From: Deltaproteobacteria bacterium RBG_13_61_14
GTDB taxonomy: Bacteria > RBG-13-61-14
Assembly (NCBI GenBank): GCA_001797815.1
Contig: MGQK01000075.1
Location: forward strand, 31,287-48,401
Direction: 5' to 3'
Length of the DNA: 17,115 nt
The notes under the pieces are model-generated. The model had not been told where the DNA came from, made no database searches, and was given only the letters and a program-made list of their open reading frames with translations. Both the position numbers and the translations under genes were made by a program. Of the stretch, positions 1-5,594 are shown one piece after another; position 1 is the stretch's first letter, and each line of letters opens with the position of its first letter.

Positions 1-742
1 GGAGGGCAAGATCGCGGCGGGGAAATTGGCCCAGGCCATGATCCACGGCGCCAAGACGATCGAGGTGGATGGCAACTTTGACCAGGCGCTGAAGCTGGTG
101 CGGCGGATCAGCGAGGAGTATCCGATCACGCTGGTGAATTCACTCAACCCCTTTCGCATCGAGGGCCAGAAGACCGCGGCCTTTGAGATCTGCGACGTGC
201 TCGGCTCTCCGCCGGACCACCACTGCCTGCCGGTCGGGAACGCGGGCAACATCACCGCCTACTGGAAGGGCTATAAGCAGTATTACGAGGCGCGCCTGAT
301 CCACCGGTTGCCCCAGATGAACGGGTTCCAGGCCGAGGGCGCGGCCCCGATCGTGCGCGGCCGGGTGATCGAGAAACCCGAAACCTTTGCCACCGCCATC
401 CGGATCGGCAACCCGGCGAGCTGGAAGCAGGCCGAGCAGGCCCGGGACGAGAGCGAGGGCATGATCGAGATGGTGAGTGACGACGAGATCCGCCAGGCCC
501 AATACCTGCTTTCTTCGCTGGAAGGGATTTTCTGCGAGCCGGCCAGCGCGGCCTCGGTGGCCGGGCTGATCCGGTATCAGGACAAGCTGAACCTGCAAAA
601 AGGCCAGAAGGTAGTCTGCACCCTGACCGGCCACGGGCTCAAAGACCCGGACGCCGGCCAGGGCACGGCGCGGGCGTTTTCTTCGAACCCGATCCCGGTG
701 CCGGCGGAAATGGAAGCGGTGCTCAAGGCGATGGGATTCTGA
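1..742 (+). CDS. thrC: Threonine synthase, C-terminal part (5' end outside window)
   Basis: PLP-dependent enzyme that converts O-phosphohomoserine to threonine, the last step of threonine synthesis, in the cytosol. The frame is open from base 2 to the TGA at 740-742, giving about 246 residues; the true start lies upstream, so internal start codons here are not used. Recognisable threonine synthase stretches are GKIAAGKLAQAMIHGAKT near the left edge, NSLNPFRIEGQKT, the phosphate-binding-like PVGNAGNITAYWKGY, and the C-terminal CTLTGHGLKDPD. Family membership is clear; the N-terminal lysine that binds PLP is not visible. The gene ends only 10 nt before a repeat-bounded cassette. The next housekeeping gene, apgM, is a likely partner because members of its family are proposed homoserine kinases. 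No terminator is seen after the stop. Confidence 0.93.
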   Translation, partial: EGKIAAGKLAQAMIHGAKTIEVDGNFDQALKLVRRISEEYPITLVNSLNPFRIEGQKTAAFEICDVLGSPPDHHCLPVGNAGNITAYWKGYKQYYEARLIHRLPQMNGFQAEGAAPIVRGRVIEKPETFATAIRIGNPASWKQAEQARDESEGMIEMVSDDEIRQAQYLLSSLEGIFCEPASAASVAGLIRYQDKLNLQKGQKVVCTLTGHGLKDPDAGQGTARAFSSNPIPVPAEMEAVLKAMGF

Positions 743-752
743 AGAGGAAGAG

Positions 753-782
753 TTCACCACAGAGGCACAGAGAGCACAGAGG
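753..782 (+). repeat. Left inverted repeat of cassette A (CACAGAG-type)
   Basis: A 30-bp repeat starting TTCACCACAGAGGCACAGAG and ending GCACAGAGG, made of spaced CACAGAG-like units. It differs at one base from the copy at 3960 and is inverted relative to the copy at 2497. It begins 10 nt after the thrC stop. The bases just outside, GAAGAG (747-752), also precede the repeat at 3960, so the conserved unit may extend outward by about 6 bp. Confidence 0.9.
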
Positions 783-864
783 AGGAAAAAGAGAGAAGAA
801 ATCTATTGAGGTAAGGACGGAAAGAAAGAGGAATATGTTTTAGATAAGAGTGTTGGGATAGAAA

Positions 865-1290
865 ATGGTGACGGCTAAAGAGGTGAAACAGCGATTGAGC
901 GGGCCTAAAATAGATATCGAGGCATTGAACGACTTGAGCGGGAAAATTGTTGACGCCGCGATTGAGGTACATCGGCACTTGGGACCAGGACTTTTGGAGT
1001 CGGCTTACGAAAGTTGCTTGGCCCGGGAGCTAAGTCAACGCGGCCTGGAAATTCAGCGCCAAGTTGAGTTACCAATTCATTATAAGGGTGAGCAATTGGA
1101 GGTCAGCTTTAGGATAGATATTTTAGTTCAGGATTTGATCATTGTTGAAATCAAAGCCGTGGAGCAAATCCTGGGAGTGCATGAGGCTCAAGTGATTACT
1201 TATCTCAAGCTCTCCGGATGCCCTTTAGGCTTACTTCTGAACTTCAACACCAAGCTGATGAAGAATGGGATAAGAAGATTTCGAAATTGA
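865..1290 (+). CDS. GxxExxY family protein (PD-(D/E)XK_3), copy A
   Basis: A 141-residue protein of the GxxExxY family, placed in the PD-(D/E)XK superfamily; the cellular role of the family is not established. The defining motif is seen as GPGLLESAY near residue 45, followed by nuclease-fold signatures: the Asp of FRIDILV, the E-x-K of VVEIKAV-like IIVEIKAV, and the Gln/Tyr of HEAQVITYLK. These are the expected catalytic elements, so metal-dependent nuclease activity is possible but unproven. No signal peptide or membrane segment is visible. The ATG at 865 has only a weak upstream ribosome site; conserved sequence starts near residue 18, so a slightly later start is possible. It lies 33 nt before the second cassette gene. 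About three quarters of aligned residues match copy B at 4062. Confidence 0.88.
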   Translation: MVTAKEVKQRLSGPKIDIEALNDLSGKIVDAAIEVHRHLGPGLLESAYESCLARELSQRGLEIQRQVELPIHYKGEQLEVSFRIDILVQDLIIVEIKAVEQILGVHEAQVITYLKLSGCPLGLLLNFNTKLMKNGIRRFRN

Positions 1291-1323
1291 GGATAACCTA
1301 AAAGGATAAAAAGGAGGAAACCG

Positions 1324-2436
1324 ATGGAACTTTTTTATTTGAAGACCACAGATGATTCATTATCTGTGAAAGAAAGGGCTAAGCCAATCAAATTCAAAGA
1401 AATCCTGACCAAGGGAGCATTAGAAAAGGACCTTGAGCGATTGATAGTCGAAAACCCAGGTCTTCTCGACTGGTCCGATCATAATTCATCCCTCGACGAA
1501 GAGCCGGACTTGCTTATTATCAGCCGCCAAAAATGCTTTGGAAAGGAACCAGACCTCTTGGCGATTGATCGCCAAGCCAATCTTGTGGTAATTGAAATTA
1601 AGCGCGATGCGGTTGATGAAAAAAACAGGAAGGAAGCCTTTGAATTTCAGGCGATCCGTTATGCCGCGGCCAGCAGAAAAATGACGCCTCACCAAATCAT
1701 TGATCTTTTCGCTGGTTATTTGAAGGATCTAGAAGCAGACAAAAAGGATGTTGATTGGAGGGAAGAGGCTGTAAGCAAATTATGCGAGCACTTGTCTGGT
1801 GAGGAAGAAGTATCAGAAGACGACCTTGAGGAATTGCTCAATCCCAGGGATCAGCAAAAGATTTACTTGGTGGCAGCGGATTACGAGCCGGATGTGACCT
1901 CCGCATGCGCCTGGCTTCAGGAACACAATATTAACATCGCTTGTTTCAGGTTGAGACCCTATAAGATAGGTGATCGAATGATCCTCGAACGGGAAAGACT
2001 CATCCCCCCTCCTGAGCTTGATGACTTTATGCCAGAAACGGTGCCAATTTCAGACCAGCGCCGTGAATACCAAAAAGGAAGAACAATAACGAATCCTTCT
2101 GACCCAGCCCAGTGTTTGACTTGGCAAGACGGGGATGGCTCGGAAATATCGGTCAATGGTTGGACCCATGCATTATACCTAGGGACCCAAAAAGCCCTGG
2201 AGTTGAATCTGAGCGAGGACGACCTCCCAATGAAGCACCATGCTGATGAAAAAGACTTTGATCCATCAAGTTCATCAAAGCCAATGAAGATCAAAGAAAA
2301 TCTGTTCATTGACAAGCACGGAAGCGCCAACCAACTTCGAACCTTACTTTCGATTATGTTTCGCAATCTAGACAAAGAGAAGGGATTCTTGCAGATATTA
2401 ACGCAATCGGGAGCTAGTTATGAATTGCCTGATTGA
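1324..2436 (+). CDS. PD-(D/E)XK nuclease-fold protein (DUF91/NucS-like N-terminal region)
   Basis: A 370-residue soluble protein of uncertain function. Residues about 35-115 look like an endonuclease NucS/DUF91-type PD-(D/E)XK core: LERLIVENPGLL, then EPDLLAID with Asp77, then VVIEIKRD with Glu91 and Lys93, then FEFQAIRYA with Gln109 and Tyr113. Residues about 185-225 (IYLVAADYEPDVTSACAWL and following) look like a second alpha/beta segment. The C-terminal 100 residues are not recognised. The start has a strong ribosome site, AAGGAGG at 1311-1317, 6 nt before ATG. It follows the GxxExxY gene by 33 nt, suggesting co-transcription. Base composition is lower in GC than thrC or apgM, which suggests transfer. 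It may be a DNA repair or defence nuclease, or cargo of the cassette; context does not decide. Confidence 0.75.
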   Translation: MELFYLKTTDDSLSVKERAKPIKFKEILTKGALEKDLERLIVENPGLLDWSDHNSSLDEEPDLLIISRQKCFGKEPDLLAIDRQANLVVIEIKRDAVDEKNRKEAFEFQAIRYAAASRKMTPHQIIDLFAGYLKDLEADKKDVDWREEAVSKLCEHLSGEEEVSEDDLEELLNPRDQQKIYLVAADYEPDVTSACAWLQEHNINIACFRLRPYKIGDRMILERERLIPPPELDDFMPETVPISDQRREYQKGRTITNPSDPAQCLTWQDGDGSEISVNGWTHALYLGTQKALELNLSEDDLPMKHHADEKDFDPSSSSKPMKIKENLFIDKHGSANQLRTLLSIMFRNLDKEKGFLQILTQSGASYELPD

Positions 2437-2496
2437 CGAAAGTTATGTCGTGCCTCTGCGGGCCGGGAGAATTTACTATTTTTTAAACTATAATTT

Positions 2497-2525
2497 CTCC
2501 GTGCTCTCTGTGGCTCTGTGGTGAA
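2497..2525 (-). repeat. Right inverted repeat of cassette A
   Basis: Read on the minus strand it begins TTCACCACAGAGCCACAGAG and ends GCACGGAG, an inverted copy of 753-782 with two differences. Its plus-strand end, GGTGAA, stops 6 bases before the apgM start codon. The 18 bases GGTGAA to ATGAAG at this junction differ at one position from those at 4521-4538. Confidence 0.9.
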
Positions 2526-2534
2526 AAATTCATG
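2520..2534 (+). promoter_or_regulatory. Ribosome binding site of apgM lying inside the repeat end
   Basis: GGTGA (2520-2524) matches the 3' part of the consensus AAGGAGGTGA and stands 7 nt before ATG 2532. No other Shine-Dalgarno-like sequence lies close to this start. The site is the terminal part of the inverted repeat, so the repeat seems to provide translation initiation for the downstream gene. Confidence 0.55.
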
Positions 2535-3746
2535 AAGTATGTAGTTCTGATCGGCGACGGGATGGCGGATGATCCGCAGGACCATCACCGCGGACAGACG
2601 CCGCTGGAAGTGGCGAAGACCCCGAATATGGATCGGCTGAGCCGGGGAGCGGTGCTGGGCCGGGTGCGGACGGTGCCGGCGGGCATGCACGCCGGCTCGG
2701 ACGTGGCCAACCTGTCCATCCTCGGCTACGACCCCCGGACGCATTACACCGGCCGGGCACCGATCGAGGCCGCGGGTTTGGGCGTGGAGCTCCAGCCGGG
2801 CGAGACCGCGCTCCGCTGCAACCTGGTCAGCCTGGGCCAAGGTCCGGACGGCCCGGTCATGGAAGACTACAGCGCCGGCCATATCAGCAACGAAGAGGCC
2901 GCGGCGCTGATGGAGGCGCTGAACCACGAGTTCAACGGCCGCGGCATCCGCTTTTACCCGAGCGTGAGCTACCGCAACCTCTGCGTGATCGCCGGGTTTG
3001 ACGACCGGATGCAGGTGACCCCGCCCCACGACTTTTTGAGCGGCAAAGTCGGCGAGCACTGGCCCGCCTGCCCGGGCGCCATCCAGGTCCGGGCGATGGT
3101 AGAGGCCTCCCAGAAGATCTTCGCCGACCATCCCGTGAACCTCAAGCGGAAGAAGCTGGGCCTAAAGACCGCGGATTCGATCTGGCTGTGGGGCCACGGG
3201 GTGATGCCGCGGCTGCGGACCATCCCGGAGCGTGACGGGCTGCATGGCGTGGTCATCTCCGGAGTGGACCTGGTGCGGGGTCTGGGCAAGCTGGCCGGCC
3301 TGGAGATCATCCGGGTGCCGGGCGCGACCGGCGACATCAACACCAATTACTCGGGCAAGGTGGCCGCGGCGCTGCAGGCGCTGGCCGGTCAGGACCTGGC
3401 TTACGTGCACATCGAGGCGCCGGACGAGGCGGCGCACCAGGGCAACCTTCCGGAGAAGATCGAGGCGATCGAGCTGTTTGACCGGCGGGTGGTGGGGCCG
3501 ATGGTGGAGGGTTTGCAAAAGCTCGCGCAGCCGTTCCGGATCCTGGTGATGCCGGACCACATGACCCCGGTCAAGGAGCGGACCCACCGGGACGACCCGG
3601 TGCCGTTCATGATCGTGGATTCCGCGAAGCTGGACCCCAAGGCTGGGCCGGGCCCGGGCCTGACCGAGCGCGCGGCCGCGGCCGCCGGGCTCCTGATCGA
3701 GCGGGGCTATGAACTCCTGGACCGACACTTTTTCCAAAAGGGATGA
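2532..3746 (+). CDS. apgM: Archaeal-type cofactor-independent phosphoglycerate mutase family protein; possible homoserine kinase
   Basis: A 404-residue protein of the alkaline-phosphatase superfamily, ApgM/COG3635 type, full length for the family. Metal and catalytic residues are visible: Asp9 in LIGDGMAD, the nucleophile Ser56 in HAGSDVANLSILGYDP, Asp299 and His303 in EAPDEAAHQ, Asp343-His344 in VMPDHMTP, and His353. The family interconverts 2- and 3-phosphoglycerate in archaea. A bacterial branch found beside threonine genes in genomes without ThrB is a proposed homoserine kinase (TIGR02535 as I recall). The position after thrC fits that role, with phosphohomoserine passed to ThrC; this is inference. 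The start ATG 2532 has its ribosome site in the preceding repeat. The ferredoxin gene begins 4 nt after the stop. Confidence 0.88.
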   Translation: MKYVVLIGDGMADDPQDHHRGQTPLEVAKTPNMDRLSRGAVLGRVRTVPAGMHAGSDVANLSILGYDPRTHYTGRAPIEAAGLGVELQPGETALRCNLVSLGQGPDGPVMEDYSAGHISNEEAAALMEALNHEFNGRGIRFYPSVSYRNLCVIAGFDDRMQVTPPHDFLSGKVGEHWPACPGAIQVRAMVEASQKIFADHPVNLKRKKLGLKTADSIWLWGHGVMPRLRTIPERDGLHGVVISGVDLVRGLGKLAGLEIIRVPGATGDINTNYSGKVAAALQALAGQDLAYVHIEAPDEAAHQGNLPEKIEAIELFDRRVVGPMVEGLQKLAQPFRILVMPDHMTPVKERTHRDDPVPFMIVDSAKLDPKAGPGPGLTERAAAAAGLLIERGYELLDRHFFQKG

Positions 3747-3750
3747 GACC

Positions 3751-3954
3751 ATGCCGCGGGTAGTGGTCAACCCGGAGCGGTGCAAGTCGTGCGAGATCTG
3801 CGTGCACGCCTGCCCCAAGGAGTGCCTGAAGATCGGCGAAGAGACCAATGCCTCGGGCTATTTCGTGGTGCGGTTCGAGAGCGAGGAGCGGTGCACGGGG
3901 TGCCTGATCTGCGGGGAGATGTGCCCGGATCTGGCGTTGCAAGTCTGGAAATGA
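3751..3954 (+). CDS. 2-oxoacid:ferredoxin oxidoreductase, ferredoxin-like delta subunit (2 x [4Fe-4S])
   Basis: A 67-residue protein with two tetra-cysteine motifs, CKSCEICVHAC (followed by PKEC) and CTGCLICGEMC (followed by PD), which bind two [4Fe-4S] clusters. It carries electrons from the catalytic subunits of a 2-oxoacid oxidoreductase to external ferredoxin. I chose ATG 3751 rather than the in-frame upstream start at 3709, because that would overlap apgM by 38 nt, and AAGGGA at 3738-3743 lies 7 nt before 3751. The stop TGA overlaps an ATG (ATGA at 3951-3954). In comparable operons this subunit directly precedes alpha; here a GxxExxY cassette separates them. Confidence 0.9.
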   Translation: MPRVVVNPERCKSCEICVHACPKECLKIGEETNASGYFVVRFESEERCTGCLICGEMCPDLALQVWK

Positions 3955-3959
3955 AGAGT

Positions 3960-3989
3960 TTCACCACAGAGACACAGAGAGCACAGAGG
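3960..3989 (+). repeat. Left inverted repeat of cassette B
   Basis: A 30-bp repeat starting TTCACCACAGAGACACAGAG. The first 29 bases are an exact reverse complement of 4498-4526, and the copy differs at one base from 753-782. It begins 5 nt after the stop of the ferredoxin gene. CACAGAG occurs three times within it at spacings of 8 and 9. Confidence 0.92.
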
Positions 3990-4061
3990 CAAGAAAAAAC
4001 TGGGGTTAAGAAATGGAAGAGGAGAAAGATTGATAGCGGGTAAGATGAAAATGGAGTTGCA

Positions 4062-4478
4062 ATGGCTTATGAAAAAGCGAGAGTAAAAAGATCGGAAATC
4101 GATCTGGAAGCTCTTAACGAGTTGAGTGGAAAAATCGTGGATGCTGCGGTGGAGGTGCACCGGCATCTGGGGCCGGGGCTGTTGGAGTCGGTTTACGAAA
4201 CCTGCCTGGCGAAAGAATTAACCGAGCGAGCGGTTAAGTATCAACGGCAAGCGGAAATCCCGATCTGTTATAAAGGAGAACCGCTGGAAGTTAAATTCAA
4301 GGTAGATCTCTTGGTGGAGGATTTAATCGTAGTTGAAATCAAATCCGTGGAGACCATTCTCCCGGTGCACGAGGCCCAGGTTCTTACCTATCTGAAACTG
4401 ACGGGATGCCCATTGGGTTTACTATTCAATTTTAACAGCAAACTCATGAAAGATGGCATTCGCCGCTTTCGGATTTAA
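4062..4478 (+). CDS. GxxExxY family protein (PD-(D/E)XK_3), copy B
   Basis: A 138-residue homologue of the protein at 865-1290, matching it at roughly 95 of 126 positions in my hand alignment. GPGLLESVYETC carries the GxxExxY motif. KVDLLVED, VVEIKSVE and HEAQVLTYLK give the Asp, Glu-x-Lys and Gln/Tyr of the PD-(D/E)XK fold, all intact, so the gene does not look decayed. Its biological function is unknown. ATG 4062 is supported by GGAG at 4053-4056, 5 nt upstream. It sits on the same strand as the operon it interrupts and could be read through from it. There is no accompanying nuclease gene as in cassette A. Confidence 0.88.
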   Translation: MAYEKARVKRSEIDLEALNELSGKIVDAAVEVHRHLGPGLLESVYETCLAKELTERAVKYQRQAEIPICYKGEPLEVKFKVDLLVEDLIVVEIKSVETILPVHEAQVLTYLKLTGCPLGLLFNFNSKLMKDGIRRFRI

Positions 4479-4497
4479 CTTTTTTGACCTTTAAATT

Positions 4498-4526
4498 CTC
4501 TGTGCTCTCTGTGTCTCTGTGGTGAA
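4498..4526 (-). repeat. Right inverted repeat of cassette B
   Basis: An exact reverse complement of 3960-3988. On the plus strand it ends GGTGAA, 6 bases before the start codon of the alpha subunit gene, exactly as the repeat at 2497-2525 does before apgM. Confidence 0.92.
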
Positions 4527-4535
4527 AGATTCATG
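4521..4535 (+). promoter_or_regulatory. Ribosome binding site of the alpha-subunit gene lying inside the repeat end
   Basis: GGTGA (4521-4525) is 7 nt before ATG 4533, the same spacing as at the apgM start. The local sequence GGTGAAAGATTCATGAAG differs from the apgM junction at one base. No alternative Shine-Dalgarno sequence is evident. Confidence 0.55.
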
Positions 4536-5594
4536 AAGAAGAAGTTGGTAAAGGGCAACGAGGCGTTGGCGCAGGCCGCGATTGAGGCCGGGTGCAGGTT
4601 CTACTTCGGCTACCCGATCACGCCCCAGAACGATATCCCGGAATACCTGGCCCGGGAGTTCCCCAAGCTCGGCGGCACCTTCCTCCAAGCCGAAAGCGAG
4701 ATCGGCTCCATCAACATGGTGCTCGGAGCCTCCGCGGCCGGCATGCGCGCCATGACCTCGTCCTCCGGACCCGGCATCTCGCTGATGCAGGAGGGCTTGA
4801 GCTACCTGGCCGGCTCGGAAATCCCCGCGGTGGTCGTCAACGTCCAGCGCTCCGGCCCGGGCCTGGGCGGCATCTCGCCCAGCCAGGGCGATTACTTCCA
4901 GGCCACCCGCGGGGGCGGCCACGGCGACTACCGCACGCCCGTGCTGGCCCCGGCCTCGGTCCAGGAGATGTGGGACCTCACCTTCCTCGCCTTCGACCTG
5001 GCCGACCGCTACCGCAACCCGGTGGTGATCCTGGCCGACGCCATGCTCGGGCAGATGAAGGAGCCCCTGGAGATGCGGAAGCCGGAGCTGCCGCCGCTGC
5101 CGGCCAAGGACTGGATCCTGGAGGGTTGCCAGGGCCGGGACAAGCGTCTGCTCAAGTCGCTCTACCTGGGCGAGGGCGAGCTGGAGAAGCACTGCTGGCG
5201 CCTGTGGGCCAAGTATGAGGAGATCAAGAAGAAAGAGGTGCGCTGCGAGGCTTACCGGATCGAGGACGCCGAGCTGGTGGTGGTGGCGTTCGGCAGCCCG
5301 GCGCGGATTGCCAAGGGCGCGATCATGGAGGCGCGCGAGCAAGGCTTGAAGGTGGGCCTGCTGCGGCCGATCACCTTGTATCCCTACCCGGAGAAGGAGC
5401 TGGCGGACCTGGCCGACCAAGGCAAGACCTTCCTGGTGACCGAGCTGAACGTGGGCCAGATGGTGGAAGACGTGCGGATGGCCGCGGGCCGGCGCGCGGA
5501 GGTGCACTTTTACGGCCGGCCGCCGGGGGCGGGCAGTCTGCCTTCGCCCGAGGACATCTTGCACGAGATCCGGGAGACTTATCCAGCGAGGTAA
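4533..5594 (+). CDS. vorB: 2-oxoacid:ferredoxin oxidoreductase alpha subunit, VorB type
   Basis: A 353-residue catalytic subunit that, with the beta subunit, oxidatively decarboxylates a 2-oxoacid to acyl-CoA using TPP and CoA, reducing ferredoxin. The N-terminal pyrimidine-binding domain shows GYPITPQNDIPEYLA (26-40), QAESEIGSINMVLGASAAG and TSSSGPGISLMQEGLSYLAG. A C-terminal transketolase-like domain (about 245-350) has LLRPITLYPYPEKEL. Length and sequence resemble proteins named 2-oxoisovalerate (3-methyl-2-oxobutanoate) oxidoreductase VorB, so branched-chain 2-oxoacids are the likely substrates. A 2-oxoglutarate role (KorA) cannot be excluded. The beta gene starts 3 nt after the stop, with GAGG at 5588-5591 as its ribosome site. 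The preceding delta gene is separated by cassette B. Confidence 0.9.
   Translation: MKKKLVKGNEALAQAAIEAGCRFYFGYPITPQNDIPEYLAREFPKLGGTFLQAESEIGSINMVLGASAAGMRAMTSSSGPGISLMQEGLSYLAGSEIPAVVVNVQRSGPGLGGISPSQGDYFQATRGGGHGDYRTPVLAPASVQEMWDLTFLAFDLADRYRNPVVILADAMLGQMKEPLEMRKPELPPLPAKDWILEGCQGRDKRLLKSLYLGEGELEKHCWRLWAKYEEIKKKEVRCEAYRIEDAELVVVAFGSPARIAKGAIMEAREQGLKVGLLRPITLYPYPEKELADLADQGKTFLVTELNVGQMVEDVRMAAGRRAEVHFYGRPPGAGSLPSPEDILHEIRETYPAR

Follow-up and report, generated by a model that had tools for sequence, protein, structure and literature searches.

Short versions of the intervening sequences (IVSs) of 23S rRNA genes that lack an open reading frame (ORF) are known. The Coxiella IVS is 428 nt long, has a 28-bp terminal stem and an IVP ORF, and its excision by RNase III has been demonstrated in vitro (PMC4990558). 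The present analysis concerns two cassettes, A and B, each with a GxxExxY gene between two inverted arms, in a 17,115-nt stretch of DNA (the window) from Deltaproteobacteria bacterium RBG_13_61_14 (assembly GCA_001797815.1, contig MGQK01000075.1, positions 31,287 to 48,401 of the forward strand). We judge it somewhat probable that they represent a mobile element without a transposase, whose own nuclease acts on the arms and, in trans, on gene-less derivatives. The gene-repeat pairing recurs across many bacterial phyla, in genomes that often have dozens of gene-less repeat copies, and points to an apparently undescribed mobile DNA family. In the open-access literature (PMC), two papers name GxxExxY, once each and in passing, and no description of a GxxExxY-repeat element was found there; an earlier account elsewhere is possible.

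A sequence-only reading of the window had described the two cassettes as having the same inverted-repeat ends, exact in B. These ends hold up (Table 1), and the arms of A match those of B at 93-97%. A perfect 30-bp pair is not expected to arise by chance within 17 kb. The cassettes are in the same orientation and 1.43 kb apart (1.4 kb in that reading), each between co-directional host genes, and 509 bp separate the two arms of B. Family matches agree with the operon-junction neighbors that it had named, thrC/apgM and ferredoxin/alpha, and with a GxxExxY gene in both cassettes. Cassette B stands with corrected ends (3959 and 4527 instead of 3960 and 4526), and the gene lies at a similar, not an equal, distance from the left arm (84 bp in A, 74 bp in B), a spacing that varies widely at other loci. 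No transposase gene is present in either cassette, as had been noted; they contain GxxExxY and, in A, a PDC-S11-like ORF. An Rfam search of the cassettes gave no known RNA family above the gathering score. The GxxExxY proteins A and B are 72% identical. Because only 39% of the third codon positions of their genes are identical and the nonsynonymous divergence (dN) is 0.18, the two genes reflect an old divergence under purifying selection and not a recent duplication.

Three genomes of this phylum were available for comparison of the junctions, and both junctions, which the sequence-only reading had proposed to compare for empty sites, are empty in one of them. In this genome (G001, of the same order, with an apgM 56% identical), thrC directly abuts apgM and the insert is absent. 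Its ferredoxin-alpha junction has a 42-bp spacer and no cassette, a comparison made over the first alpha codons only because the alpha reading frame breaks off early in the contig, probably through an assembly fault. The comparison supports cassettes A and B as inserted units with common ends.

In the source genome, the repeat occurs genome-wide and is yet strongly associated with GxxExxY genes, an association that the earlier reading had left to a genome search. Neither of the two results that this reading had named as refuting it was obtained. The sequence CACAGAGNCACAGAG, with up to two mismatches, has 94 matches compared with 9 for its reversed control, and the pattern CCACNRAGN{1,2}CACNRAG has 175 matches compared with 1. 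All four GxxExxY genes of this genome are flanked by inverted arms of three related types, CACAGAG (A and B), CACNAAG (the gene on contig C53) and CCACGAAGG (the gene on contig C23). Many further copies, about 100 bp long, are gene-less and have ends as in the gene-bearing units. A gene-less unit folds into a near-perfect hairpin (-42 kcal/mol, z -10.9, DNA parameters). Units can also be nested, with a CACNAAG-type unit inside a CACAGAG unit at two loci (L002 and L019).

Two single copies of this genome have features of their own. The fourth GxxExxY gene (L034, C23:7046) has an in-frame TGA close to the C terminus, and this copy may therefore be decaying. At L025 (255-870, contig C128), the ORF between the CACAGAG arms looks by eye like the adjacent downstream gene for an MlaD-like membrane protein and is possibly a captured or duplicated gene.

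The pairing of gene and arms extends far beyond the source genome. Arms were scored by motif-free local alignment of the flanks against dinucleotide shuffles (z >4 and 0 of 100 shuffles as good), a test that misses degenerate arms and contig ends, some genomes being fragmented. Inverted arms were found at 27 of 43 GxxExxY loci of unrelated genomes (0/83 shifted positions) and at 51 of 75 named GxxExxY loci (0/129 shifted positions), and ParE toxin genes, taken as a control, had them at 1 of 30. The repeats thus bracket the genes beyond chance, a point that the earlier reading had proposed to test, and chance pairing of repeats is rejected by the two controls. The named carriers of arms belong to Chloroflexota, Acidobacteriota, Bacteroidota, Planctomycetota, Verrucomicrobiota, Pseudomonadota, Omnitrophota, Cyanobacteria and Chlamydiota, and include a Leptospiraceae metagenome-assembled genome. 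Arms usually comprise roughly three degenerate 8-10-bp units in tandem, for example ACCACAGAG-n-CACAGAG-nn-CACAGAG. A Parachlamydiales genome has an unusual CCACTGAGCACACTGAG arm common to the gene-bearing unit and many gene-less units. In Bacteroides finegoldii, an arm starting with GTTCACCACAGAGGACGCAGAGGACAC is common to the gene-bearing unit, located between radA and the gene for an FAD-dependent protein, and to a gene-less unit beside lptB. Relatives of GxxExxY B were found in 7 of 72,556 plasmid records, 0 of 50,697 phage records and 1 viral contig. This near-absence is unusual for a mobile gene, and these counts reject GxxExxY as a phage or plasmid gene.

Bacteroides ovatus has a gene-less palindrome with arms of this kind between gmd and the GDP-L-fucose synthase gene (L336, 1500-1575). 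A B. finegoldii record matches the whole L336 stretch at 87.7%.

The arm unit follows the clade of the protein. The 86 armed loci were split by the GxxExxY region of the protein: with GPG there, 57 loci have RAG-type units, 1 has GAT-type and 16 have others, and with another residue, 8 have GAT-type units, 3 RAG-type and 1 another (RAG versus GAT by clade, Fisher 1.7e-7). A Mantel-type test of arm unit against protein gave a rho of 0.40, compared with a maximum of 0.22 in 1000 permutations. The number of repeats follows the presence of the gene. Of 26 GxxExxY-bearing genomes in a diverse set of 116, 13 have 10 or more repeat copies, compared with 3 of the 90 that lack the gene (Fisher 7e-8). 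Among 30 genomes of the genus Thioalkalivibrio, 7 of the 9 with the gene have 44-205 copies; G129 and G130, which also have the gene, belong to a GSG clade with GAT-type arms and have zero RAG copies. One of the 21 without the gene, G144, has 56 copies, and the others have at most 8. This co-distribution rejects a repeat unconnected with the GxxExxY gene. After stratification, the data did not support the view that IVP genes are what drives the CACRRAG repeats; IVP presence by itself does not explain the copy numbers (1/22).

At one Thioalkalivibrio junction, gene and arms changed jointly. The element is present in seven genomes and absent from eight, which have spacers of 9 to 94 bp. The seven carriers form three groups by gene sequence, {G116, G138}, {G134, G136, G156} and {G133, G142}, and the arms differ by group: CACAGAG, CACGAAG (decayed in G156) and AGGAAGA-like, the last read from the sequence by eye and below significance in the arm test. 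Between groups the gene is 49-68% identical, whereas some flanks are 93-96% identical (G138 versus G142 and G156). Because the gene diverged while the flanks are alike, either gene and arms were replaced together or independent insertions occurred at a favored spot. Beyond the current element, the junction holds remnants resembling older arms. Nested palindromes, with CACGAAG arms outside, CACAGAG arms inside and a third palindromic core, recur at many Thioalkalivibrio loci (L299-L308 in G134; L309-L313 and L319-L323 in G136).

The partner protein is predicted to be a small PD-(D/E)XK nuclease, on the basis of its modeled fold and conserved residues. Its membership of TIGR04256 / PF13366 is clear (154 and 151 bits against a cut-off of 35), and PF13366 is the only family that it matches at that family's cut-off. 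The motif residues G39, E42 and Y45 are invariant in 42 proteins. An AlphaFold2 model of GxxExxY B, built from a 43-sequence alignment, has a mean predicted local distance difference test score (pLDDT) of 92.9. Its best structural match is Cas4 SSO0001 (Z 9.7 over 100 residues), followed by a restriction-endonuclease-like protein (Z 8.1) and, at lower Z, by Hjc resolvase and lambda-type exonucleases; no solved relative by sequence was found in the PDB. D82, E92 and K94 are invariant in the 43 aligned proteins, and Q106 is invariant or nearly so (42-43 proteins). The PD-(D/E)XK fold named by the sequence-only reading is therefore borne out in the model.

These observations suggest the following mechanism. 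A GxxExxY gene and the two inverted arms around it would make up a mobile element without a transposase, of which each cassette would be one copy. GxxExxY would recognize the arm unit of its own clade, either as tandem duplex sites or as a cruciform or hairpin formed by the arms, and would cut at or near the element ends. Repair-coupled copying could then spread the unit, or bring it by exchange into an older resident copy whose outer ends are similar. In trans, GxxExxY could also act on the gene-less palindromes (about 60-140 bp), which would be derivatives like miniature inverted-repeat transposable elements (MITEs) or REPINs, and copies would settle at gene junctions. Expression is probably by readthrough, since the gene is usually co-directional with its neighbors. 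GxxExxY is favored as the arm-acting enzyme because its catalytic residues are conserved, arm unit and clade are linked, gene-less copies depend on the gene, and gene and arms changed together. Of the readings considered, an action of the protein on the repeat has the best support. The inserted unit of the sequence-only reading stands, and its description as a non-autonomous unit with GxxExxY as cargo fits less well: because gene-less copies depend on the gene, the arm unit tracks the clade and the two changed jointly at one site, the GxxExxY-bearing copies look like master units and the short gene-less copies like the non-autonomous ones. Cargo is likely only in cassette A, in the form of its extra defense-candidate gene. 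This gene lies between the arms of A, so that the element may carry defense cargo.

Several points weigh against this mechanism. Cleavage, excision and new insertion were none of them observed, and the synteny of the Thioalkalivibrio genomes (about 0.6 Mb) gave no clean target-site duplication. The replaced site could be a hot spot for independent insertions. Several GxxExxY loci have no arms detectable by the arm test. The counts of gene and copy number carry no correction for phylogeny, and two genomes, G010 and G144, have 51 and 56 repeat copies and no GxxExxY match. A unit that travels whole, moved by something else, could also produce the co-distribution and the clade linkage.

Table 1. 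Arms, genes and host neighbors of cassettes A and B, in window coordinates
Feature	Position	Strand	Evidence
Left arm of cassette A	753..781	+	Tandem CACAGAG-type units; 27/29 complementary to 2497-2525
GxxExxY gene A, 141 aa, predicted PD-(D/E)XK nuclease fold	865..1290	+	PF13366 E 1e-44; TIGR04256 E 1.6e-45
Second ORF of cassette A, 370 aa, candidate phage-defense PDC-S11, probable cargo	1324..2436	+	PADLOC PDC-S11 E 1.5e-38; weak NucS-like match
Right arm of cassette A	2497..2525	-	Inverted copy of 753-781
Left arm of cassette B	3959..3988	+	30/30 complementary to 4498-4527
GxxExxY gene B, 138 aa, predicted PD-(D/E)XK nuclease fold	4062..4478	+	TIGR04256 E 1.6e-44; AlphaFold2 model
Right arm of cassette B	4498..4527	-	Inverted copy of 3959-3988
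Host thrC, left neighbor of A (5' part outside the window)	26..742	+	TIGR00260 E 4.1e-56
Host apgM, between A and B	2532..3746	+	TIGR00306 E 3.9e-140
Host ferredoxin-like 2-oxoacid oxidoreductase delta subunit, left neighbor of B	3751..3954	+	PRK09626 E 8.7e-13, below its cut-off
Host 2-oxoacid oxidoreductase alpha (VorB-type) subunit, right neighbor of B	4533..5594	+	PRK07119 E 1.7e-165

A second gene family shows a similar arrangement. IVP / four-helix bundle genes (PF05635) located outside rRNA (L115-L142, unrelated genomes) have inverted arms of tandem degenerate 7-9-mers at 16 of 28 loci, compared with 1 of 30 for ParE. Their arm units, for example GTTAACA, GGTTCCT and GTCAGTG, differ from those of GxxExxY. 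The two families co-occur in genomes (21/26, p 3e-7). In G010, partial IVP matches form inverted pairs, with a spacing of about 370 bp, at several sites (contigs C2, C3, C7 and C12).

Among the alternatives, the one that survives best makes GxxExxY a passenger or maintenance gene. The unit would be spread by host replication or repair, or by an unlinked transposase or reverse transcriptase, and the nuclease would only benefit the unit or the host, for example by protection or defense. In favor of this, gene-less copies greatly exceed gene-bearing ones, and G010 and G144 are rich in copies without the gene. A defense-candidate gene in cassette A and IVP genes with arms of the same style and no nuclease point in the same direction. 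Against it, both of two independent samples link repeat number to the gene, arm unit and protein clade are linked as well, and neither window cassette has a transposase. We regard a passenger role as unlikely.

It is less probable still, and on balance doubtful, that the cassettes are RNA-level elements like the 23S rRNA IVS. The arm hairpin would be removed from the transcript by RNase III, insertion into an operon would be tolerated, and GxxExxY would act on RNA or be incidental. Gene orientation bears on this explanation in both directions: over 59 loci, 35 genes are co-directional with both neighbors, as it would have them, whereas 8 are antisense to both and 16 lie between divergent or convergent genes. 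The size and shape of the cassettes are like those of the Coxiella IVS (PMC4990558), IVP genes genome-wide have similar arms, and the gene-less units fold into strong hairpins (DNA parameters). Hairpin processing accounts for tolerated insertions, not for spread, and by itself it leaves arm-clade linkage and gene-linked repeat number unexplained. The remaining alternative, that common intergenic stem-loops (terminator-like or other palindromes) flank an often intergenic gene by coincidence, fits gene-less copies at gene junctions such as the one between gmd and fucose synthase in B. ovatus, and is very improbable in view of the near-absence of arms at ParE genes and shifted positions, of arms and repeat counts that follow protein clade and gene presence, and of the joint change at the Thioalkalivibrio site.

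The reading of a transposase-less element moved by its own nuclease can be extended to a broader proposal, which we put forward tentatively and at somewhat less than an even chance. Bacteria would widely harbor a class of mobile DNA whose inverted-repeat unit and gene-less palindromes are spread by a nuclease of its own, a stand-alone PD-(D/E)XK enzyme working without a transposase, recombinase or reverse transcriptase. The repeat unit would co-evolve with the nuclease, and IVP would be a parallel second branch. GxxExxY is a common bacterial family of unassigned role, and the link to a repeat family gives it a testable function. A large class of intergenic palindromes that have lacked an explanation may be accounted for by these linked repeats, which occupy dozens of sites per genome over many phyla. 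Should the nuclease indeed move them, mobility would have a route that needs no transposase. The IVP parallel may bear on the spread of 23S rRNA intervening sequences (PMC4990558).

The system resembles several described ones and differs from each. Like the repetitive extragenic palindromes (REP/REPIN) and their REP-associated tyrosine transposases (RAYT, TnpA_REP), it combines many short intergenic palindromes with a partner gene flanked by the same palindromes, and copy number is linked to the partner. In contrast to RAYT, the GxxExxY partner is a predicted PD-(D/E)XK nuclease and not a Y1/HUH transposase; the arms are tandem degenerate 8-10-mers, and a genome can have several paralogues and arm types. 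MITEs and their parent insertion sequences share with it the terminal inverted repeats, a gene-bearing copy with short gene-less derivatives that have the same ends, and nesting. The GxxExxY element differs in its lack of a transposase gene and in arms built of tandem sub-units, and the Thioalkalivibrio synteny gave no clean target-site duplication for it. The IVS of 23S rRNA likewise has a small ORF between terminal inverted repeats of about 28-30 bp and a sporadic distribution (PMC4990558), but the GxxExxY element has a GxxExxY ORF in place of IVP, lies at protein-gene junctions instead of in rRNA, and is dispersed genome-wide. The protein has the fold core and the D...ExK active site in common with Cas4, lambda-type exonuclease and Hjc, and the Q-x3-Y in common with RecB/Cas4-type enzymes. 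It is far smaller (about 120-140 aa), with N-terminal helices of its own that bear the GxxExxY motif, and the GxxExxY genes in the window are not adjacent to cas genes. In summary, the GxxExxY system works like REPIN-RAYT or a MITE with its parent, but its partner is not the transposase that defines those systems.

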